A stretch of 64,000 nucleotides of DNA from Terriglobales bacterium (lineage in GTDB: Bacteria; Acidobacteriota; Terriglobia; Terriglobales; Acidobacteriaceae), in the NCBI GenBank assembly GCA_025936825.1, contig JAICSO010000001.1, positions 806,001-870,000 on the forward strand. Direction: 5' to 3'. Of the stretch, positions 10,255 through 50,082 are shown piece after piece. Below the pieces are notes generated by a model, which was given only the letters and a program-made list of their open reading frames with translations, was not told where the DNA came from and did no database searches. A program made the translations under genes and the position numbers. Positions within the stretch are counted from its first letter, which is position 1; every line of letters begins with the position of its first letter.

Positions 10255-10904
10255 GGGAAGCTCCTGCGAGGAGCATAGCAAAACCGCTACTGGCGTATGG
10301 GCTGTTGGGCCGCCGAAACATGCCGTCTTGGACGCAGTTACCTGCTCGGCTTAGACAACCTACCTGATAATCAACGACTAACTCTCCATAGACTTCTCCT
10401 CCATGAATTCGAAGCCGAACCAGCGTGTCCAGAGTTCGACTATCAGGCAATCAGGGCTTTCCCAATGCTGGTTGCTAGTCCAGTTCTGATGGATCCACGA
10501 CCAAAAACTGACACAACGGGAGGGAGGAATCCACGTACCGACATGGCGCTTCATTAACTTCTCTCCAAGTCACGTGATCCCCTGAGTTGGAATCATCTTA
10601 AATATCTAAAGAACGAACACAAGGCCACGAAAGTTGTATGTGTGGGAAGCTACGCCTCGCACCGTCAAAGCCCCACGCTATTGCCCTCCCAAGCACCTCA
10701 TCCTTTATCCCTAACAAAATCCGTGATATAACGCCCTAAGGCCGTTGAAACCCAGATTTGACGGCCTTAGCGGGGGCTGAAGGAGTAGAATCGCTGGGAA
10801 TTGGAGTGGATTGAATTATCGACGATGGGATCGTTGAAAGGCCCAGCAGTGGAGGGACTGTTCAATGACTCAGTGATCTTATGATTCAATCCTCAGGAGG
10901 GCCT
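10255..10904. other. Non-coding gap before the PilZ gene
   Basis: About 600 bases without a convincing gene. It contains the upstream region of hemD and a 10-bp perfect inverted repeat (10736-10770). Near its right end are scattered TTGAAT/GATTCAAT words of the same kind as the repeat at 11910. A plus-strand open frame at 10297-10557 has no recognisable protein features. Confidence 0.5.
10736..10770. repeat. 10-bp perfect inverted repeat (operator or hairpin)
   Basis: CTAAGGCCGT (10736-10745) and its exact complement ACGGCCTTAG (10761-10770) are separated by 15 nt. No T-tract follows. It lies about 135 bases upstream of the PilZ-NarL pair and could be a regulator site or an RNA stem in a long leader. 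Confidence 0.6.
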
Positions 10905-11909: not shown

Positions 11910-12022
11910 ATTGAATCATTGAATCATTGAATCATTGAATCATTGAATCATTTGGAACACCTCCATATCCCTTCATTGAGATTGCACTGCGGGATATTCG
12001 CTCGGTGATTCAATGATTCAAT
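11910..12022. repeat. Five ATTGAATC direct repeats and their inverted partner
   Basis: ATTGAATC is repeated five times without interruption at 11910-11949. Two copies of its reverse complement GATTCAAT follow at 12007-12022. A transcript from either side could fold them into a 16-bp stem. The block lies between the convergent NarL-type and GAF-ANTAR genes, begins in the NarL stop codon and overlaps the 3' end of the GAF-ANTAR gene. It may work as a bidirectional terminator. Confidence 0.75.
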
Positions 12023-18183: not shown

Positions 18184-20124
18184 GTGCGCACTTTCTCCGA
18201 AACCGCCGACCGCATCGCTACCACGACCAAGAAGCTGGAAAAGACAGCGATCCTGGCGGAGTACTTTCGGGCTGTCTCCGTGGAAAATGCGTCCGTCGCG
18301 GCGGTGTTCTTCTCGGGACGTCCGTTTCCCGTGTGGGAGGAGACCACCTTACAGGTGGGCGGCTCCATGCTGTGGCGGATTATTGCGGAGTTGGCGGGGA
18401 AGTCGGAGCACGCCCTCACCGAGGCATACCGCAAATACGGCGATCTCGGCGCAGTAGCGGAAGCGGTGCTTCCCCAACTCGAACCACGCAGCGGCATCCC
18501 TCGGCTTCCCAGCAAATCGCCAGCAGAGATCCAGCGCATTTTCCGCGAAATCTCCGCAGCAAGGCGCCCCGCGTTTAAGGCTGGAGCAGCGAAACAGCTT
18601 CTCGGAAGCGTTTCCCCGCTCGAGGCCAAGTACGTCATCAAGATCATGACTGGCAACCTGCGAATCGGGTTAAAAGAAAGCTTGGTCGAAGAAGCGATCG
18701 CAAAAGCATTTTCGCAACAGCATCCTGAAACCACGCTCAAGGCTGTCCAGCGCGCGAACATGCTCCTCGGTGATATCGGAGAAACGCTGAAGCTCGCGGC
18801 AGAAGGTCGACTGGCCGAGGCGAAAATGCGGTTGTTTCATCCGATTGGATTTATGCTGGCCAGCCCGGCGGAATCAGCAAGCGACGCACTCAGTTATTTC
18901 CAGAACGCCTGGGTCGAAGATAAGTACGATGGGATTCGCGCGCAGGCTCATTGCTCCGGAGACGATGTCCGATTCTTTTCGCGCACCCGCGACGAAATTA
19001 CGGAGTCATTCCCCGAGTTGCCAGATGCCCTGGCTGGATTACCGAGCGACGCGATCCTGGATGGGGAGATTCTGGCGTGGGATTACGCGGGCGAGGGAAA
19101 CGAACCGTCGTACGTCGTAGGTCGTACGTCGTATGAAAGCGAGTCGTCGGTCTTCGGCCGTCGGTCGTCGGCAGAAAATCCCGCCGCAGCAGGTCGGGCT
19201 CTTCCATTTAGTGCACTGCAGAAGCGCCTTGGACGGAAGATGGTGAACGACGATTTGATTCGTGAGGTGCCGGTCGCATATCTGGTCTTCGATGTCCTGT
19301 ACGCGAATGGCGAACTCGTCATTGATCGTCCGCTGCGAGAGCGAGCGAAGCTTCTGGCCGCCCTGCTGGCCCGGCGAAAGCCTCCTCACCACGGAGACAC
19401 GGAGGCACGGAGAAGAAAAACTAAAGGTGAGTTGCAAGGGCGGCTCGATTTCGGACTAGCTGACGACAACGAACTGATGGCCAATGACGGTTTACCAACG
19501 ACCAACGAGCAAGGACCAACGACGCCTCAGCCGACGACCGAAGACCGACAGCCGCCCACTGCCGTGATACGCGCGCCTGTATCCCAAGCCTCCTCGCCTG
19601 ATGAACTCAACGCGCTGTTCGATGCCGCTCAGGCCCGCGGCAACGAAGGGCTAATGATCAAGGATCCCGAGTCGGCGTATTCGCCGGGCCGGCGGGGCAA
19701 ATCGTGGCTGAAATTGAAACGAGAACTGGCGACGCTGGACGTCGTTGTTACGGCGGTGGAGTTTGGTCATGGCAAGCGCATCGGCGTACTGAGCGATTAC
19801 ACGTTCGCAGTCCGCGATAAGGACCAGTTGCTGAACGTTGGGAAAGCCTACTCCGGCTTGACCGATACCGAGATCGCCGAAATGACGAAGTGGTTTCTCG
19901 ATCACACCACCGAAGATCAAGGGTTCCGCCGCGTGGTCGAGCCTAAGATCGTGATCGAGGTGGCATTCAACAACGTGATGCAATCCGATCGTCACAACAG
20001 CGGGTATGCTCTGCGATTCCCGCGTATCGTGCGGCTTCGACCAGACAAACTCCCGGAGGAAGCAGACAGCCTGGAGAGAGTGAAGGAAGTTTACGAAAAG
20101 CAGAGCAAGAACTCGCAGCGCTGA
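18184..20124 (+). CDS. ATP-dependent DNA ligase with two in-frame repeat insertions
   Basis: This enzyme seals nicks by the ATP-dependent adenylation route and is additional to the NAD-dependent LigA expected in bacteria. It has the helical N-terminal domain (about 1-200), an adenylation domain with nucleophile Lys247 in DKYDGIR, the LDGEILAWD motif, GNEGLMIKD, and Lys in SWLKLK, then a C-terminal OB domain. Two low-complexity segments interrupt the adenylation domain at about residues 309-338 and 399-459. They coincide with dispersed DNA word repeats and sit between conserved blocks that read through normally once they are removed. The start is GTG. Catalytic residues are intact, so activity is likely. 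Confidence 0.92.
   Translation: MRTFSETADRIATTTKKLEKTAILAEYFRAVSVENASVAAVFFSGRPFPVWEETTLQVGGSMLWRIIAELAGKSEHALTEAYRKYGDLGAVAEAVLPQLEPRSGIPRLPSKSPAEIQRIFREISAARRPAFKAGAAKQLLGSVSPLEAKYVIKIMTGNLRIGLKESLVEEAIAKAFSQQHPETTLKAVQRANMLLGDIGETLKLAAEGRLAEAKMRLFHPIGFMLASPAESASDALSYFQNAWVEDKYDGIRAQAHCSGDDVRFFSRTRDEITESFPELPDALAGLPSDAILDGEILAWDYAGEGNEPSYVVGRTSYESESSVFGRRSSAENPAAAGRALPFSALQKRLGRKMVNDDLIREVPVAYLVFDVLYANGELVIDRPLRERAKLLAALLARRKPPHHGDTEARRRKTKGELQGRLDFGLADDNELMANDGLPTTNEQGPTTPQPTTEDRQPPTAVIRAPVSQASSPDELNALFDAAQARGNEGLMIKDPESAYSPGRRGKSWLKLKRELATLDVVVTAVEFGHGKRIGVLSDYTFAVRDKDQLLNVGKAYSGLTDTEIAEMTKWFLDHTTEDQGFRRVVEPKIVIEVAFNNVMQSDRHNSGYALRFPRIVRLRPDKLPEEADSLERVKEVYEKQSKNSQR
19108..19197. repeat. 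In-frame word-repeat insertion 1 in the ligase gene
   Basis: About 90 bases of GTCGTACGTCGTAGGTCG- and GTCGTCGGTCTTCGGCC-type words lie inside the ligase reading frame. They separate the AWDYAGEG segment from PFSALQKRLG, which are normally close together. Confidence 0.8.
19378..19560. repeat. In-frame word-repeat insertion 2 in the ligase gene
   Basis: About 183 bases combine a CACCACGGAGACACGGAGGC-type element with ACGACCAACGAGC / CCGACGACCGAAGACC words. The segment encodes a Pro/Thr/Gln-rich stretch between LLAALLAR and the conserved SPDELNALFD block. Confidence 0.8.
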
Positions 20125-26460: not shown

Positions 26461-27441
26461 ATGGCTTCCCCGTTGGTCAGTACCGTTGAATCGGCTTTTT
26501 TGCCGCAAGTGCTCGCAAAAAGAGCAGATGTGCTGAAGCATCTGGCCCAGTCGGAGCGCTATGGGAAGGTCTGCCCGGCGTCACGGCTGGAAGTGCGTCC
26601 CCGGCCGGAGATGCTCACGTCGGGGATCGCTGAACTGGATGCGATCAGTGGAGGGATTCCTTGTGGCTGTATGACGGTGCTCTGGGGAGGGGCTTCGTCC
26701 GGTAAAACCAGCGCTCTTTTGGCGGCTCTCGCGCGCAATACGCACGACGAAGGTACTTGCGTTCTCATTGACGCCAGCGACAGCTTTGATCCCAAATCGG
26801 CCGATGCTGCCGGAGTGAATCTGGGAAGGTTGCTGTGGGTGAGGTGCGGCGAAAAGCGGTCCTTGGTCCTTGGTCGTCGGTCGTTGGCAGTTGGTGTTCG
26901 GTCGTCGGCAGAGCACAGCGCTCTAAGAACTGACAGCCAAGAGCTAAGAGCCAAGAGCCAGGAGCCGAGAACCCAGAGCCTAGAGCCAAGAGCCAAGCGC
27001 GAACGAAGAACGACCAACGACCAACGACAGATTTCCCTACGGCATACGACCTACGACGTACGACGCAATACAGAAGCCGAATTTCGTCTTGAGCAGGTAC
27101 TCAAGTCCACCGATCTCATTCTGCAGAGCGGGGGCTTTGGCCTGGTCGCGCTGGATCTCGCGGGGATCCCTGAAAAATATGTACGGCGGATTCCGCTGGC
27201 TTCCTGGTTTCGATTCCAGCGTGCCGTGGAACACACGAAAACCGCGCTTCTTGTGATCAGCGAATTTGCCTGTGCGCAGAGTTGCGCGACGCTGGCATTC
27301 CAGTTGTCACTCGCCAGTTCTCAGTTGCCAGTTCAGTCTCAATCGACAACACATGCAGAGCTTCTACGGGAAGTTCGAATTGAGGCAGAAATGATGCGCT
27401 CGCGACTGGAGCGCAAGCCGATGCAATCGGTGCGTGCATAA
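26461..27441 (+). CDS. imuA: ImuA-like RecA-related protein with repeat insertion
   Basis: ImuA helps recruit the ImuB-DnaE2 mutasome for damage-induced mutagenesis. The 326-residue protein has a RecA-like ATPase core with TSGIAELDAISGGIPCG leading to Walker A GGASSGKT (76-83). The core resumes at EAEFRLEQVLKSTDLILQ and FGLVALDLAGI. Residues 131-204 (26851-27072) are a low-complexity Arg/Ser/Gln-rich segment made of dispersed DNA word repeats and keep the frame. It is the first gene of imuA-imuB-dnaE2. No LexA box was recognised upstream. Family call rests on the core motifs and on context. Confidence 0.85.
   Translation: MASPLVSTVESAFLPQVLAKRADVLKHLAQSERYGKVCPASRLEVRPRPEMLTSGIAELDAISGGIPCGCMTVLWGGASSGKTSALLAALARNTHDEGTCVLIDASDSFDPKSADAAGVNLGRLLWVRCGEKRSLVLGRRSLAVGVRSSAEHSALRTDSQELRAKSQEPRTQSLEPRAKRERRTTNDQRQISLRHTTYDVRRNTEAEFRLEQVLKSTDLILQSGGFGLVALDLAGIPEKYVRRIPLASWFRFQRAVEHTKTALLVISEFACAQSCATLAFQLSLASSQLPVQSQSTTHAELLREVRIEAEMMRSRLERKPMQSVRA
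26851..27072. repeat. In-frame word-repeat insertion in imuA
   Basis: This 222-base segment (74 codons) strings together four word families: GGTCCTTGGTCGTCGGTCG, AGAGCTAAGAGCCAAGAGCC, ACGACCAACGACC, and ACGACCTACGACGTACGACG. It separates LLWVRCG from EAEFRLEQ, which would be adjacent in a compact ImuA. Confidence 0.85.
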
Positions 27442-27525
27442 TTTGCGACGAAAACAGTTCGCGCGGGATGAAAGTTTGAGTTCGCTTTTCGTCGCCGACC
27501 GCGATTCCAGCTTTGCGGCTGTTGG

Positions 27526-27580
27526 GAGCCAACGACGAACAACCAACGACGAACGATCAACGACCAACAGCCAACGACGG
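27526..27580. repeat. Word-repeat tract just upstream of imuB
   Basis: About 55 bases of CAACGACGAACAACC / CCAACGACGAACG words end 4 nt before the imuB ATG at 27585. They replace any ribosome-binding sequence there. The tract has the same composition as the tracts inside imuA and dnaE2. Confidence 0.8.
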
Positions 27581-27584
27581 GTTT

Positions 27585-29120
27585 ATGCCTTTTGCCTGCA
27601 TCTTCGTGCCTGATTTTCCGGTGGAGGCGATTGTGCGCGCAGAACCCGATCTGCGATCGCAGGCGGTAGCTGTAATTCAAGGCAGGCCGCCGTTACAGAA
27701 AATTTGTGCTCTGAATGAAGAGGCCCGTCAGGCTGGCATTTCGACCGGCATGACCAGGCTGCAAGCCGAAGTTTGCGATGTCATCACATTGCGAGAGCGA
27801 TCACAGCTGCAAGAGTCTTCTGCGCATCAGGCACTGCTCGATTGTGCGCAGTCGTTTTCTCCGCGAGTGCAGGAGTGCGCGCCTGACACGCTATTGCTCG
27901 ATGTGTCTGGTCTGGAGAAACTCATCGGGCCACCTGCAAAAATCGGTCGCGAAATATTTCGTCGCGCCTGCGCCATGGGACTGGAAATGAACGTGGCTGT
28001 GGCTTCCACGATTGAAGCGGCGCAAATTGCGGCGCACGGTTTCAGCGGAGTGACGATTGTTCCGGAAGGGAAAGAAGCCGAGCTCCTGGGCAGCTTGCCA
28101 GTTGAAGTGCTGTTCTATGACGAAGAGGATCCGGATGACGCCGAAGAACTTCTGGAGACTTTTCATCGTTGGGGAATTCGCAAGCTTTGCGAACTGACTG
28201 CGCTTCCTGAAGTCGCATTGAGCGAGCGCCTGGGACAGCTTGGGCTGGAACTACAGAGGAGAGCGCGAGGAGTGAGTTCTTCCACACTCGTGCCATCCGA
28301 TCCGCCACTGGTTTTTGAAGAGGTGCAGGAACTCGAGTTTCCGTTGGTGTTGCTGGAACCCATGGCTTTCATTCTGAACCGCATGCTCGAGCATCTGTGT
28401 GCGCGGCTGGAAGGGCGTGCGCTGGCCGCGCAGGAGCTATGCCTGGAGTTGCAACTCGAAACCGGGTGTCGCGCGGCGGCCAATCAATCGCAAAATTCTT
28501 TTCAGCGCGTGATCAAACTGCCGGTTCCGTTGCTCGATCCAAAAACTTTTCTCAAGCTTTTGCAGTTGGATTTGAAGGCGCATCCTCCCGGGGCTCCAGT
28601 GAAGAAAGTTGCTCTGCGAATTGGGCCTGCGAAACCTCGTCCCGCACAAGATGGACTGTTTATGCCGGCTTCGCCGCAGCCGGAAAAGCTGGAGCTTACT
28701 TTGGCTAGACTGAGCGGCATTGTTGGCGAAGGGCGCGCTGCCTCGCCGGCTCTGCTCGATACGTACCGTCCTGAAGCATTCGAGATGCGGCACTTCACGC
28801 CGTCAGCTTCGAGGAATGAGAATGGTTCTGGAAAAGATCTGGTAACTGCACTGCGAATTTTTCGCCCGCCGGTTTGCGTGCAGGTGCAGCAGGCGAATGG
28901 CAAACTCCAGCACATTTCGGCGCAGAAGAATTCGAAGATTTCTGGTTCGGTGCTTTGGGCCGCAGGTCCGTGGAGATCTTCTGGAGATTGGTGGGACCAG
29001 GATCCGTGGGCGCGCGATGAATGGGACATCGCACTGGAAGAGAAGAGCAGCATCGTGCTTTATCGACTGATTCACGATCTGCTCAGCGGCAAGTGGATGG
29101 TGGAAGGGACATACGATTGA
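27585..29120 (+). CDS. imuB: ImuB-type Y-family polymerase homologue
   Basis: The 511-residue protein is a DinB-like protein of the ImuB class. It serves as the mutasome adaptor that links DnaE2 and the sliding clamp. The N-terminal palm starts FACIFVPDFPVEA. The thumb has an HhH-like region with ALPEVALSERLGQLG, and a long C-terminal extension is characteristic of ImuB. The catalytic SxDE motif reads LLDVSGLE, so a metal-binding Glu is missing, as expected for a non-catalytic ImuB. The open frame extends to 27513, but that stretch is repeat-derived; the ATG at 27585 starts the conserved protein. Confidence 0.88.
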   Translation: MPFACIFVPDFPVEAIVRAEPDLRSQAVAVIQGRPPLQKICALNEEARQAGISTGMTRLQAEVCDVITLRERSQLQESSAHQALLDCAQSFSPRVQECAPDTLLLDVSGLEKLIGPPAKIGREIFRRACAMGLEMNVAVASTIEAAQIAAHGFSGVTIVPEGKEAELLGSLPVEVLFYDEEDPDDAEELLETFHRWGIRKLCELTALPEVALSERLGQLGLELQRRARGVSSSTLVPSDPPLVFEEVQELEFPLVLLEPMAFILNRMLEHLCARLEGRALAAQELCLELQLETGCRAAANQSQNSFQRVIKLPVPLLDPKTFLKLLQLDLKAHPPGAPVKKVALRIGPAKPRPAQDGLFMPASPQPEKLELTLARLSGIVGEGRAASPALLDTYRPEAFEMRHFTPSASRNENGSGKDLVTALRIFRPPVCVQVQQANGKLQHISAQKNSKISGSVLWAAGPWRSSGDWWDQDPWARDEWDIALEEKSSIVLYRLIHDLLSGKWMVEGTYD

Positions 29121-29125
29121 AAACC

Positions 29126-29198
29126 AGCTCTTAGCTTTTAGCCTTTAGCTGTTAGCTGAAGGATTTGGCTAAAGGCTAAGAGCTAAAAGCTAAGAGCT
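29126..29198. repeat. 17-bp inverted repeat ending at the dnaE2 start codon
   Basis: AGCTCTTAGCTTTTAGC (29126-29142) is exactly complementary to GCTAAAAGCTAAGAGCT (29182-29198), with a 39-nt loop that itself holds related words. The right arm ends 4 nt before the TTG start and covers the ribosome-binding position, so folding of the message would hide the dnaE2 start. Confidence 0.85.
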
Positions 29199-29202
29199 GA
29201 TT

Positions 29203-32200
29203 TTGTACATCGAGCTTCATTCCCGCTCGGCATTCAGTTTCCTCGAAGGCTCGTCTGTGCCTGAGGACTTGATTGCCCGCTGTGCTGCGCTGGCTATGCC
29301 AGCGATGGCGCTGCTTGATCGCAACGGCGTGTATGGTGCGCCGCGGTTTCATATGGCCGCGAAGAAAGCGGGAATCAAGGCGCATATTGGGGCGGAAGTT
29401 ACATTGCAGATTTCAGATTTTAAATTGCAGATTAAAAAGGCAAAAATCAGCAATCTACAATCTGAAATCAGCAATCTTTCCCGTCTTCCGCTTCTTGTTT
29501 CTTCTCGCACCGGATATCAAAACCTATGTCGCCTCATCACCAAGATGAAGCTGCGCGCCTCTAAAGGGGAAGGCGCGGTTTATCCGGAGGAATTGCCGGA
29601 GTATGCAGAGGGATTAATTTGTCTGACTGGCAGGGATAACGGGCCGATTGCTTCTGCGTTCCGTCGCGGCGGAATTGAGGAAGCGCGCAGTGCTGTAGAG
29701 CTTTTGACGCACATCTTTGGCGCAAAGAATGTCTACATCGAACTGCAGCGGCATTTCCTGCGCGAACAGGAACTTTGTAATCGTGCAGCCATTGAAATTG
29801 CGCGCTCATTGCATCTGCCATTGCTGGCCACCAACGGCGTGCGCTATGCCAATAAAGAAGAACGCGAACTGTGTGATGTCTTTACCTCCATCGCAAATCA
29901 CTGCACGCTGCAGGATGCCGGACGCCTGCTGGCACTCAACTCGGAATGTCATGTGAAATCACCGACGGAGATGGCGGCGCTCTTCGCCGATGTGCCCGAA
30001 GCTATTTCCAACACCGTGGAACTTTCGTCCCGGCTTGAGTTCACGCTGGAGGATTTGGGATACGAGTTCCCCAAATATCCCGTGTCCGAAGGCGAGAACA
30101 TGATGTCATTCCTGCGGGAACGTACTCGTGAGGGCTTCCAATCGCGATATGGGCGTGCGAATGGCGATTTACGTGAGCGTGCACGGCAGCAAGTTGAGCG
30201 TGAACTGGCGCTCATCGAAAAGCTTGAGCTGCCCGGTTACTTCCTTATTGTTTGGGACTTGGTGCGGTACTGCCGCGAGCAGAAGATTCTTGTGCAAGGC
30301 CGCGGATCGGCTGCCAACAGCGCGGTTTGTTATTCGCTGGGCATAACCGCTGTCGATCCGGTTGGAATGGAGTTGCTCTTCGAGCGTTTTCTTTCCGAAG
30401 AGCGCGGCGAGTGGCCGGACATTGATCTAGACCTTCCCAGCGGGGACGATCGCGAATCAGTGATTCAGTACTTGTATCGTCGTTACGGTGAGCGCGGGGC
30501 GGCGATGACGGCGAACGTCATTACCTATCGCAGCCGCATGGCATCGCGCGAAATTGGCAAAGTGCTGGGTTTCGATCCCGAAACCCTGGACAAAGTTTCC
30601 GCCGCGGTCTCGCACTGGGAATACCGCGATGCGAACGACACATTTGATCACCGCTTTCACGATGCCGGTCTCGATCTGCGCCATCCGCGCATTCGCAAGT
30701 ATTTCGAACTGTGCGAGGCCATCCAGGACTTGCCTCGCCACCTCGGGCAGCATTCCGGCGGCATGGTGATTTGTCAAGGACAACTTGATTCAGTCGTGCC
30801 GCTCGAGCCTGCGTCCATGCCGGGGCGCGTGGTTGTGCAATGGGACAAAGAAGATTGCGCCGATCTGGGCATCGTGAAAGTGGATCTGCTCGGCCTCGGA
30901 ATGATGGCGGTGCTGAAAGATTCGCTCGCGCTGATTTGCGATCACTACGACGAGGAAGTCGATCTGGCGCACCTGCCGGCGAATGATCCCGATGTGTATT
31001 CCACGCTGCAGAAGGCGGACACGATCGGCATGTTCCAGATCGAGAGCCGGGCGCAAATGTCGTGCCTGCCGCGGCTTCGTCCGGCGAGCTTCTACGACAT
31101 CGTGGTGCAGGTTGCGATCATCCGTCCGGGGCCGATCGTGGGGCAGATGGTGAATCCATATTTGGAGCGGCGGCAGGGCAGGCAGGAAGTGACGTATGCG
31201 CATCCGTCGTTGGAGCCAGTGCTGCAGCGGACATTAGGCGTGCCGTTGTTCCAGGAGCAACTGCTTCGCATCGCCATGGTGGTGGCGGGATTTTCCGGCG
31301 GCGAGGCCGAGGAACTGCGTCGGGCAATGGGATTCAAGCGCTCTGAAAAGCGCATGCGCGAGATTGAGGCCAAGCTCCGCGCAGGCATGACGCGCAATGG
31401 AATTTCGCCGCAGGCGCAGGAAGATATCGTGCTGTCGATCACTTCGTTTGCGCTGTATGGATTCCCTGAGTCGCACGCCGCGAGTTTTGCGCTGATCGCA
31501 TATGCCAGTGCTTACCTGAAATCTCATTATCTTGCGGCGTTCACCGCTGCGCTGCTGAACAATCAGCCGATGGGCTTTTACAGTCCGGCAACCATTGTGA
31601 AAGATGCGCAGCGGCACGGCTTGCGCGTGCTGCCGGTGGATGTGACCAGGTCGGAGTGGAATTGTACGTTGGAGAGCCAGCCATCAGCCGTCAGCCGTCA
31701 GCCATCAGGAGTCGCACGTCGAGCGTCGCACGTCGCACGCGAAGTTGTCGTCGGTCGTCGGCTGCCGGTCGTCGGCCAAGACCAACCCGAGAAATCAGAA
31801 AACAAAGTCGCACGTCGAGCGTCGCACATCGCACGCGAAGCGGGGGTTTCTTCGCTACGAATGAGTTCTAGGATCGAGGGCCGACCATCGTTGGCAAACG
31901 AACACAGCTCCGAAGGAGCAAAAGAATACAGCCCGGGGCGTGAGCCCCGGGTAGAAGGGTTGAAGGAGGAAGCCCCGAAGGAGCGGCAGAAATCGCCGAG
32001 CGGGCACTTGGTCGAGACCGCTCATTTACAGACGACCGACGACCAACGACCGACGACCAGGCACGGCACCATCGCGCTTCGCCTCGGGTTGCGATATGTC
32101 AAAGGACTGCACGAAGAAGCTGGACAGGCGATCGTGCGCGAGCGCAGAAAAGCGCCGTTCGATTCCATCGATGACCTCGCGCGGCGCGTGCCGGAGTTGA

Positions 32201-32841
32201 ACAAGAAAGAATTGAACACGCTGGCGGAAATTGGGGCGTTGAACTCAGTTTCAAGTTTCGAGTTTCAAGTTTCGAAATCAAATACTCGAAACTCGGAACT
32301 GGAAACTCGAAACTCGTCTTTCCATCGCCGCGATGCGCTGTGGAGCGCGAGTGCGGCGGCGAACCGGTTCGGGCCGCTGCTGGAAGATATCGCGGAGCCT
32401 GACCACGCTTCTCCACTAAAGAAGATGACGGATGAAGAGCGCCTGGTCGCCGACTTTCGCGGGACAGGGCTTACGACCGGACCGCATCCCATGACGTATC
32501 ATCGGGCGCGCATGAACAAATTAGGCGTGCGGCGCGCGATCGATTTGGCAAAGCTGCCTGGCGGACGACCGATTTGCATAGCCGGTGGCGTGATTGCGCG
32601 CCAGCGTCCGGGCACGGCAAAGGGGTTTGTGTTTCTCAGCCTGGAAGATGAAACCGGAGTTGCGAACGCGATCATCAATCCCGATCTGTTTCAGAAAAAC
32701 CGGCTCTTGCTCGCAACCGAACAGTTCCTGCTGATCGAAGGAATTTTGCAGAACCAGGATGGAGTCATCTCGGTGAAGGCGGCCCGAGTTTCACCGCTGA
32801 AAATTACCCGCGCACAAACCGTCTCGCATGATTTTCATTGA
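29203..32841 (+). CDS. dnaE2: Error-prone DNA polymerase III alpha subunit DnaE2
   Basis: DnaE2 is the catalytic polymerase of the ImuA-ImuB-DnaE2 translesion system. The 1212-residue protein has an N-terminal PHP domain (YIELHSRSAFSFLEG), the polymerase core with WPDIDLDLPSGDD and QGRGSAANSAVCYSLG, the PGPIVGQMVNPYLERR block, and a C-terminal OB fold (GGVIARQRP). The start is TTG, which places the family-typical Tyr at position 2. Three low-complexity segments are inserted in frame: residues 70-92, 825-954 and 1015-1040. All coincide with dispersed DNA word repeats, and the conserved sequence continues on either side. Catalytic acidic residues look intact. Confidence 0.94.
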   Translation: MYIELHSRSAFSFLEGSSVPEDLIARCAALAMPAMALLDRNGVYGAPRFHMAAKKAGIKAHIGAEVTLQISDFKLQIKKAKISNLQSEISNLSRLPLLVSSRTGYQNLCRLITKMKLRASKGEGAVYPEELPEYAEGLICLTGRDNGPIASAFRRGGIEEARSAVELLTHIFGAKNVYIELQRHFLREQELCNRAAIEIARSLHLPLLATNGVRYANKEERELCDVFTSIANHCTLQDAGRLLALNSECHVKSPTEMAALFADVPEAISNTVELSSRLEFTLEDLGYEFPKYPVSEGENMMSFLRERTREGFQSRYGRANGDLRERARQQVERELALIEKLELPGYFLIVWDLVRYCREQKILVQGRGSAANSAVCYSLGITAVDPVGMELLFERFLSEERGEWPDIDLDLPSGDDRESVIQYLYRRYGERGAAMTANVITYRSRMASREIGKVLGFDPETLDKVSAAVSHWEYRDANDTFDHRFHDAGLDLRHPRIRKYFELCEAIQDLPRHLGQHSGGMVICQGQLDSVVPLEPASMPGRVVVQWDKEDCADLGIVKVDLLGLGMMAVLKDSLALICDHYDEEVDLAHLPANDPDVYSTLQKADTIGMFQIESRAQMSCLPRLRPASFYDIVVQVAIIRPGPIVGQMVNPYLERRQGRQEVTYAHPSLEPVLQRTLGVPLFQEQLLRIAMVVAGFSGGEAEELRRAMGFKRSEKRMREIEAKLRAGMTRNGISPQAQEDIVLSITSFALYGFPESHAASFALIAYASAYLKSHYLAAFTAALLNNQPMGFYSPATIVKDAQRHGLRVLPVDVTRSEWNCTLESQPSAVSRQPSGVARRASHVAREVVVGRRLPVVGQDQPEKSENKVARRASHIAREAGVSSLRMSSRIEGRPSLANEHSSEGAKEYSPGREPRVEGLKEEAPKERQKSPSGHLVETAHLQTTDDQRPTTRHGTIALRLGLRYVKGLHEEAGQAIVRERRKAPFDSIDDLARRVPELNKKELNTLAEIGALNSVSSFEFQVSKSNTRNSELETRNSSFHRRDALWSASAAANRFGPLLEDIAEPDHASPLKKMTDEERLVADFRGTGLTTGPHPMTYHRARMNKLGVRRAIDLAKLPGGRPICIAGGVIARQRPGTAKGFVFLSLEDETGVANAIINPDLFQKNRLLLATEQFLLIEGILQNQDGVISVKAARVSPLKITRAQTVSHDFH
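29410..29478. repeat. In-frame insertion 1 in dnaE2
   Basis: These 69 bases (23 codons) contain CAGATTTTAAATTGCAGATT- and CAATCTACAATCTGAAATC-type words. They are markedly AT-rich compared with the gene and separate IGAEVTLQ from RLPLLVSSRTGY. Confidence 0.8.
31675..32064. repeat. In-frame insertion 2 in dnaE2
   Basis: These 390 bases (130 codons) sit between SEWNCTLE and GTIALRLGLRYVKG. They are a mosaic of CAGCCGTCAGCCGTCAGCC words, GTCGCACGTCGAGCGTCGCACG words, GTCGTCGGTCGTCGGC words, CTCCGAAGGAGC and GCCCGGGGCGTGAGCCCCGGG palindromes, and ACGACCGACGACC words. Confidence 0.85.
32245..32322. repeat. In-frame insertion 3 in dnaE2
   Basis: These 78 bases (26 codons) are built from TTTCAAGTTTCGAGTTTC words and the near-complementary ACTCGAAACTCGGAACTGG words, so they could form a hairpin. 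They separate LAEIGALN from HRRDALW. Confidence 0.8.
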
Positions 32842-49787: not shown

Positions 49788-49793
49788 CGTTCT

Positions 49794-49842
49794 CAGGTTT
49801 CAGGTTTCAGGTTTCAGGTTTCAGGTTTCAGGTTTCAGGTTT
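49794..49842. repeat. CAGGTTT tandem repeat, seven copies
   Basis: Seven uninterrupted CAGGTTT units lie between DUF2203 and the next lipoprotein, followed by a partial unit and CAACAGCCAACAGC words. Variants occur at 13812 (TTCAGGTTTCAGG) and, inverted, near 62731 (CCTGAAGCCTGA). Confidence 0.9.
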
Positions 49843-50082
49843 CAGGCAACAGCCAACAGCTTACAACCTTGCCCTCTGAAGCACGGGCGGTCCCCTCATG
49901 TACCGCCTGCGAACTACATTTTCCTCTGCAAGTACTCGATCGACCTCCGTTCTACCCACAAGCAGGGCTGTGGCACACGTTGGTACAGTGTCCGATTGCC
50001 GGCGGATTTCCTCTGCTACAATTTTGTGAGCTGTTGGGTCTACGATCGTTGCAGATTCACCCTTCGTCGCGGGGTTTTCATT

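Follow-up and report, generated by a model that had tools for sequence, protein, structure and literature searches.

Palindromic DNA elements in three loops of the error-prone polymerase DnaE2 of a Terriglobales bacterium and its relatives

Small palindromic sequences of the repetitive extragenic palindromic (REP) type, with GTAG/CGTC ends, were reported in 2013 to lie in frame inside genes, many of them genes of DNA synthesis or repair, with DnaE2 among those named; placement in loops and a mutator role were proposed in the same paper (PMC3733652). Rickettsia palindromic elements (RPEs), the classic case of palindromes in reading frames, were described as families of about 150 bp that lie in frame in coding genes and encode a conserved peptide (PMC10969869). 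Heptanucleotide repeats were reported with the word TAACTGA in Beggiatoaceae and Cyanobacteria (PMC4679880) and with degenerate words in Xanthomonas and Nostoc (PMC4692102); these repeats were mainly intergenic, with one main word, and a polymerase-slippage hypothesis was offered for them. Acido-Lenti-1 (RF01687) was listed as a probable RNA (PMC2864571). About 600 hairpins of Solibacter were reported with class 3 TnpA-Y1 transposases, and subclass 1.2 of TnpA-Y1 was described mostly from Cyanobacteria and Bacteroidetes, generally without terminal structures (PMC6006769). In our study, we analysed a stretch of 64,000 nucleotides (the window) from a Terriglobales bacterium (Acidobacteriota; assembly GCA_025936825.1, contig JAICSO010000001.1), which corresponds to C140:806001-870000 of a 6.54-Mb genome (G000). 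Its dnaE2 gene was found to contain three additional in-frame segments, S1, S2 and S3. We consider it probable (about 0.7) that two unrelated kinds of palindromic DNA have been inserted repeatedly and in frame in three DnaE2 loops, within the imuA-imuB-dnaE2 operon, which is an unusual hot spot for palindromic elements.

Like the intragenic REPs (PMC3733652), the elements found here are in-frame palindromes inside DnaE2; unlike them, they are mostly hairpins of 7-nucleotide (nt) words, with Acido-Lenti-1 as the REP-like part, and within a bacterial family they occupy the same three sites repeatedly, with different words. RPEs are likewise palindromic and in frame (PMC10969869), whereas the units here are degenerate 7-nt words with varying peptides; copies of S1 and S3 share words only, which sets them apart from the RPE description of about 150 bp of conserved sequence and peptide. 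The strong 7-nt bias is common to the published heptanucleotide repeats (PMC4679880, PMC4692102), but here numerous words occur in one genome, together with hairpin pairs and sites in frame. Against its listing as a probable RNA (PMC2864571), the Acido-Lenti-1 element, although a match to Rfam above gathering, is a high-copy element that adjoins Y1 genes and lies antisense inside coding sequence. The motif Y---Q--HH of subclass 1.2 (PMC6006769) is common to the transposases found here, but here hairpins adjoin the genes; the words 'acido-lenti' and 'rfam' do not occur in the main text of that paper. In the literature covered, with supplements and most subscription papers outside its scope, we met nothing on heptamer hairpins of Acidobacteriota, three reused dnaE2 sites or Acido-Lenti-1 as a transposase partner. 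REPs within DnaE2 of other bacteria are thus already known (PMC3733652), whereas the three-site reuse, the heptamer hairpins and the link between Acido-Lenti-1 and a transposase are new here.

Three in-frame segments of dnaE2 and their counterparts in relatives

The dnaE2 gene (error-prone polymerase, ImuC) occupies positions 29203 to 32841 on the plus strand of the window, starts with TTG and encodes 1212 amino acids (aa). Its identity was given by NCBIfam PRK05672 (1194 bits, cut-off 939), by an alignment of 106 proteins and by RecA-like and IMS-domain open reading frames (ORFs) upstream; the closest dnaE2 genes among the named loci belong to Acidobacteriota records, mostly metagenome-assembled genomes (MAGs). 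The single uninterrupted frame contains S1, S2 and S3 as 25, 132 and 27 aa between conserved anchors, where the initial annotation gave 23, 130 and 26 codons. Array-free relatives typically contain 5 aa at S1 (22 in an Acidobacteriaceae clade), 2-8 at S2 and 6-9 at S3.

S1 (29407-29481, plus strand, aa 69-93) is an AT-rich, heptamer-like hairpin of the word ATTNCAG (inverted repeat I2) with arms of 31 nt that are 87% complementary. As single-stranded DNA it folds with a z-score of -6.2, and equal folding was found in none of 200 shuffles. Arrays were called at 16 or more matches out of 21 at lag 7, with stricter cuts of 17/21 and 18/21 in places; the caller overlooks S1 because its score is only 15/21, and the segment was recognised through the hairpin and through copies dispersed over the own genome, which gave 54 matches at E up to 1 (self and partial matches counted). 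S3 (32245-32325, plus strand, aa 1015-1041), located after an HhH motif, is a hairpin of AGTTTCR words (inverted repeat I5) with arms of 22 nt, 91% complementarity, a z-score of -4.3 and dispersed copies. Copies of S1 and S3 read elsewhere in the genome keep the words and differ in the loops.

S2 (31675-32070, plus strand, aa 825-956), between the polymerase core and the HhH region, is a nested mosaic. Heptamer arrays of AGCCATC and GTCGCAC (31678-31744, plus strand) are followed by the left outer arm GTCGTCGG (31747-31773, plus strand), the right arm of which lies at 32031-32057 (inverted repeat I3, 85% complementary); these GTCGTCG/CGACGAC arms are separated by 257 nt. The GTCGCAC array recurs at 31806-31840, so that a 35-nt stretch is present twice, 97% alike and 96 nt apart. 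The arms and the GTCGCAC stretches surround a central Acido-Lenti-1 element, the hairpins of which lie on the minus strand at 31906-31951 (covariance-model score 53.0 bits, gathering 37, E 4e-10), with a third hairpin following at about 31971-31991; this part folds with a z-score of -4.0. The S2-S3 stretch has 62 matches at E up to 0.01 in the own genome, self and partial matches included. The initial annotation described three repeat families, and the words do differ; however, S1, S3 and parts of S2 are of one kind, the heptamer hairpin, and the middle of S2 is Acido-Lenti-1. S2, described there as a GC-rich mosaic with palindromes, consists of several nested elements, of which the GC-rich middle is a separate kind.

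The heptamer kind is widespread in the own genome. In 464 kb, 33 arrays of period 7 were found, whereas each of the periods 4-6 and 8-12 yielded between 0 and 5; at the 18/21 cut, 14 period-7 arrays were present and none in a first-order Markov control. The words included ATTNCAG, AGTTTCR, AGCCATC, GTCGCAC, AACGACC and AGCTNNN. Many arrays are opposed, folding pairs, with z-scores of -4.3 to -7.7 in three heptamer hairpins, and the inverted arms were longer than in each of five shuffles in 33 of 55 dnaE2 array inserts (not in the other 22). An inverted duplication of units was considered as their origin: all 39 hairpins matched best in register, but the register had been chosen beforehand as the best one, and no signal was obtained when the order of the units was permuted (28 of the 39 hairpins; mean rank 0.45 against 0.5 expected), so no such claim is made. 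Purging of stop codons from in-gene words was also not seen (stop-free in 52/85 in-gene and 32/60 flank arrays, p 0.39). A genome-specific vocabulary across sites is suggestive only, the mean distance being 2.29 as against 2.57 when shuffled, with 32 of 500 shuffles as low, in 19 genomes. Matches of hairpins to microRNA families of Rfam were below gathering and were taken as chance.

The position of the segments in the protein was examined in an AlphaFold model of aa 13-1212 (43 sequences, mean predicted local distance difference test (pLDDT) 75.8, predicted template modelling score 0.75). The three longest stretches with pLDDT below 50, aa 74-89, 830-953 and 1019-1039, fall inside S1, S2 and S3, respectively. 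In an alignment to solved Pol III alpha, S1 lies in the N-terminal part, which we take to be the PHP domain, and S2 directly after the polymerase core. The three segments are therefore predicted to sit in unstructured loops off the catalytic core.

Reuse of the same sites was found in the alignment, which comprises the own protein among 106 distinct dnaE2 sequences taken from 110 loci (the best 80 of 578 candidates in genome contigs and the 30 best matches from a search of 61 genomes). At 16/21, arrays were present at S1 in 11 of 106 rows, at S2 in 28 of 100 and at S3 in 23 of 101, with 12, 25 and 18 consensus words, respectively, some a single base apart. In the same rows the segments showed 33, 44 and 36 different lengths, far from one length and sequence shared by all relatives. 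On a FastTree tree of 1010 columns with the inserts removed, presence and absence required at least 10, 15 and 15 changes at S1, S2 and S3, and the consensus word changed 9 times among 11, 23 times among 28 and 15 times among 23 carriers; many of these word changes involve one or two bases. At the 17/21 cut, 79 of 92 in-gene arrays lie within S1-S3, where the median loop size is only about 15, 9 and 9 codons. Of the remaining 13, 8 sit at either terminal residue, 2 belong to cut-off rows, 1 is beside S1 in the frame-broken L054, and 2, those of L068 and L075, lie in a fourth loop near aa 1061-1070.

The segments also differ in age. S3 of G000 has the length and the hairpin of its counterpart in the congener G004 (L091), the 5'-terminal AGCCATC array of S2 is shared with the congener G007 (L090), and S1 is unlike S1 of all four congeners read (L090, L091, L092, L095), which indicates hits of different ages. 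The initial annotation had deduced independent insertions from the differing words; such words alone prove no independent hits, and it is the relatives that bear the insertions out. The congener G006 has no match to Y1, RF01687 or AGTTTC arrays, and its dnaE2 (L095) is array-free at every site.

A few related loci deserve separate mention. S1 of L009, L011, L103 and L104 is filled by a common, non-heptamer insert family containing GGGATTCCTCGCTCCGCTCGGAATGACAA or near variants. In L068 the open frame passes from dnaE2 through a heptamer array (aa 882) into another sequence, presumably glycyl-tRNA synthetase-like, and the dnaE2 similarity stops at the array; the fusion is either a rearrangement at the repeat or a misjoin of the MAG. 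The contig of L015 is titled Acidimicrobiia, yet its dnaE2 groups among Acidobacteriota in the tree, and it is probably a binning error.

Acido-Lenti-1 and the Y1 transposases

Of 37 genomes, 17 contained RF01687 above the cut-off, as opposed to none of 14 control genomes. At most 122 candidates were scored per genome and high counts, such as the at least 106 matches of G000, may be underestimates. Eleven own-genome copies, that of S2 included, align as three short hairpins, with a two-sided, pair-keeping change in 5 of 19 pairs. Y1 loci were examined because listed RF01687 copies adjoined Y1_Tnp genes. Twenty loci of one group, mostly high-scoring, were compared with 20 low-scoring loci of another subfamily; the first set contained 31 RF01687 matches, spread over 16 loci, and the second set contained none (p 1.5e-7). 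Seven of the first set had been noticed beforehand (L224, L225, L227, L229, L230, L232, L239), among them L225, a low-scoring, split Y1 match that was included for this reason; with these seven removed, RF01687 was present in 9/13 as against 0/20 loci (p 2e-5). At nine loci (L225, L227, L230, L232, L233, L235, L240, L242, L243) the nearest copies flank the Y1 gene in opposite orientation. Across genomes, split at a best Y1 E-value of 1e-19 (a dividing line of our own choice), RF01687 was found in 12/12 genomes above the line and 6/25 below (p 1e-5), and within the family in 12/12 and 5/11, respectively (p 0.005).

The motif Y---Q--HH was found in 19 of the first 20 Y1 loci and was not found in L237, whereas the second set contained a Y--NP frame in 13 of 20 (some off-centre) and neither motif in 7. 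A high-copy hairpin adjoining a Y1 (HUH) transposase gene is the arrangement of REP sequences and REP-associated tyrosine transposases (RAYTs). The NCBIfam model of the latter (NF047646, cut-off 80) gave only 21.7 and 39.3 bits for 2 proteins of the 20 loci, and the same two proteins pass transpos_IS200 (57.4 and 76.6 bits, cut-off 55). In some copies GTAG follows, and does not precede, the central Acido-Lenti-1 hairpin, as judged by eye. The Y1 gene of the own genome (C140:950662-951004) has flanking hairpins like those in S2 and looks broken, because its two profile pieces occupy different frames. Because it adjoins IS200-type Y1 transposase genes, Acido-Lenti-1 appears to behave as REP-type mobile DNA; the data support that it works like a REP system and do not support a canonical RAYT.

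The imuA-imuB-dnaE2 operon and the competing explanations

Arrays were counted by position in 101 rows with the ORF end inside the locus (L054 and L090 included). The gene itself contained 82 arrays in 331 kb, and the 3 kb upstream contained 54 in 235 kb. Downstream, 6 were present in the first 500 nt (49 kb in all) and none in the 220 kb between +500 and +4000 nt; between -4000 and -3000 nt, none was found in 55 kb. The gene is thus hit far above its surroundings, as the initial annotation supposed. The upstream 3 kb correspond to imuA-imuB, which was verified in the window and is assumed for relatives. The highest density, 0.49 per kb, was seen in the 500 nt before dnaE2. In the window, a hairpin of AGCTNNN words (29120-29204, plus strand, inverted repeat I1, z-score -7.7) fills the imuB-dnaE2 gap and reaches the dnaE2 start codon, where a control of translation is possible. 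Heptamer arrays also lie at 26855-27072 (plus strand) in an imuA-like ORF (26461-27441; NCBIfam ImuA E 2.9e-7, 30.6 bits, below the cut-off of 150; Pfam RecA) and at 27529-27575 (plus strand) at the 5' end of the imuB ORF (27513-29120; Pfam IMS match from aa 30); this last array probably precedes the true start codon, with an ATG present at 27585. The arrays of imuA and of the imuB-dnaE2 gap are of the same kind as those of dnaE2 and were absent from the initial annotation.

The preference for dnaE2 was also seen against other genes. DnaE1 of 20 of these genomes contained no array in 70 kb, while dnaE2 carried arrays in 14 of the 20 (p 3e-6). Other repair genes were considered as equal targets and rejected, the ATP-dependent DNA ligase being hit in only 2 of 24 loci, own included; among 21 genomes with both genes, arrays were present in dnaE2 of 11 and in the ligase of 2, the discordant pairs being 9 to 0. 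Two heptamer arrays, 19103-19174 and 19492-19524, lie in frame within the ligase ORF of the window (18184-20124). A 300-kb sample of G018 contained 6 arrays, every one of them in the operon region. Matches to AGTTTCN x3 inside dnaE2, relative to those genome-wide, were 1/1 in G004, 4/5 in G018 and 4/23 in G032, as well as 2/36 in G000, 0/38 in G025 and 0/2 in G003. Outside the family, a second, divergent DnaE-type polymerase (35-37% identical) was found in G055 (L342, G055:C6:56500-62500). It scores below the cut-offs of the replicative and error-prone models alike and contains an array of AGTTTCGA at aa 67, the place of S1, another at aa 134 and a heptamer array just upstream.

The explanation we favour would run as follows. 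The first kind of element, hairpins of degenerate 7-nt words, makes up S1, S3, the outer parts of S2, the imuB-dnaE2 gap and the arrays of imuA; such hairpins spread inside a genome, by a guessed route of replication slippage and hairpin copying, and turn over quickly between species. The second kind, the REP-type Acido-Lenti-1, would move as single-stranded DNA with the help of the adjoining small IS200-type Y1 transposases, and one copy lies inside the heptamer palindrome of S2. Selection would then retain the in-frame versions in loops distant from the catalytic core. DnaE2 is in general a dispensable, stress-induced polymerase, and the cost of inserts should for this reason be low, if it is dispensable in this organism as well.

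Several observations weigh against this explanation. RF01687 was absent from 4 of the 20 Y1 loci (L231, L236, L238, L241), and 46 RF01687 matches were found in G011, which lacks a high-scoring Y1. No RF01687 was found in 140 kb of the own genome (7 of 20 stretches), a weak control with about 2 expected, two known copies lying in an own-genome stretch outside these 140 kb (L121). Heptamer and Y1 counts were weakly linked in 37 genomes (Spearman 0.40, p 0.015, kinship uncorrected). Evidence of target duplication or of empty sites was not obtained, and no transposition was seen. Concerning the hot spot, the choice of the five genomes in which the operon region holds 31 of the 64 arrays (1.624 Mb) took dnaE2 arrays into account; 14 of the 30 dnaE2 genes from the search of relatives have no internal array; and G028, G030 and G012, with 55, 24 and 6 AGTTTC-array matches, have an array-free dnaE2 (L113, L110, L108), so the preference for dnaE2 is not universal.

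The initial annotation called dnaE2 a tolerant or attractive target, and its tolerance is indeed required. That tolerance is all, with elements landing at random everywhere and surviving in dnaE2 through dispensability and floppy loops, is possible but doubtful. Such an account agrees with the empty DnaE1, essential and of the same fold, in 0/20 genomes, with the low model confidence of all three loops and with the sampled arrays outside the operon, which lie mostly in short or no open frames. However, the array-free 220 kb downstream, of unannotated content, must include gaps and some genes that the cell can do without; the ligase, also a repair gene, carries arrays in 2 of 21 genomes as against 11 for dnaE2; the sample of G018 has its arrays in the operon region alone; and the loops are small targets. 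Because arrays concentrate around imuA-imuB-dnaE2, with the downstream region empty, tolerance looks too weak on its own; it is needed but probably not enough for the preference. The surplus may reflect insertion bias or selection. A stronger version of our explanation appears rather unlikely as a whole. In it, the mutasome operon of these Acidobacteriota would be an actively targeted or positively selected landing zone, mobile hairpins and frame-shifting heptamers would adjust or switch the rate of induced mutation, and Acido-Lenti-1 would be the mobile partner DNA of a subclass of single-strand transposases and not an RNA gene.

A unit of 7 nt is no multiple of three, and a contingency locus, in which a frame shift by one unit gained or lost switches induced mutagenesis off or on, would suit the arrays in imuA, at imuB and in dnaE2 as well as the frame of dnaE2 in L054, which breaks at the S2 repeat. 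This is improbable, as degenerate units should reduce slippage, nearly all rows are in frame and Acido-Lenti-1 is no slipping repeat; the frame breaks are possibly assembly errors, because that of L090 coincides with a run of N and L054 is a MAG. Functional protein modules, such as interaction linkers selected for their peptide, would explain why the segments are in frame at the same three places across many species, but their peptides vary between congeners in sequence and length and are predicted to be disordered, which makes such a function very improbable. We give least credence to DnaE2 itself as the maker of the arrays through slippage in error-prone synthesis. The arrays do lie in its own operon, but G035 has 29 AGTTTC-array matches and a single matched polymerase gene, of the DnaE1 type, although at 96% completeness a second gene may have been overlooked; G055 is no argument here, because it has the second DnaE-type polymerase.

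Further arrays and biological meaning

Arrays were also found in other genes of the own genome and of the window. The tRNA-guanine transglycosylase gene (L212:947-2158) contains an in-frame AGTTTC hairpin at about 1537-1640, and the class II ribonucleotide reductase ORF (L121:10438-13515, minus strand) contains a GTCGTGC array at 10579-10611, near its 3' end. A perfect TCAGGTT array of 7.7 units was found at 49793-49846 of the window, at the 5' end of an ORF with a Big_2 domain; it is the least degenerate array of the window and may vary in length. Two perfect tandem repeats with periods other than 7 lie at 11910-11952 (ATTGAATC x5.4) and 839-881 (an 18-nt unit x2.4).

The three loops of one polymerase fold, refilled repeatedly while the replicative sister is array-free in 20 of 20 genomes examined, represent a natural replicated experiment. 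With them one can test directly whether genes controlling the mutation rate are preferred by mobile palindromes or are places where these are selected, as was speculated in 2013. A listed 'RNA' family gains a likely identity as mobile DNA, together with a candidate enzyme.

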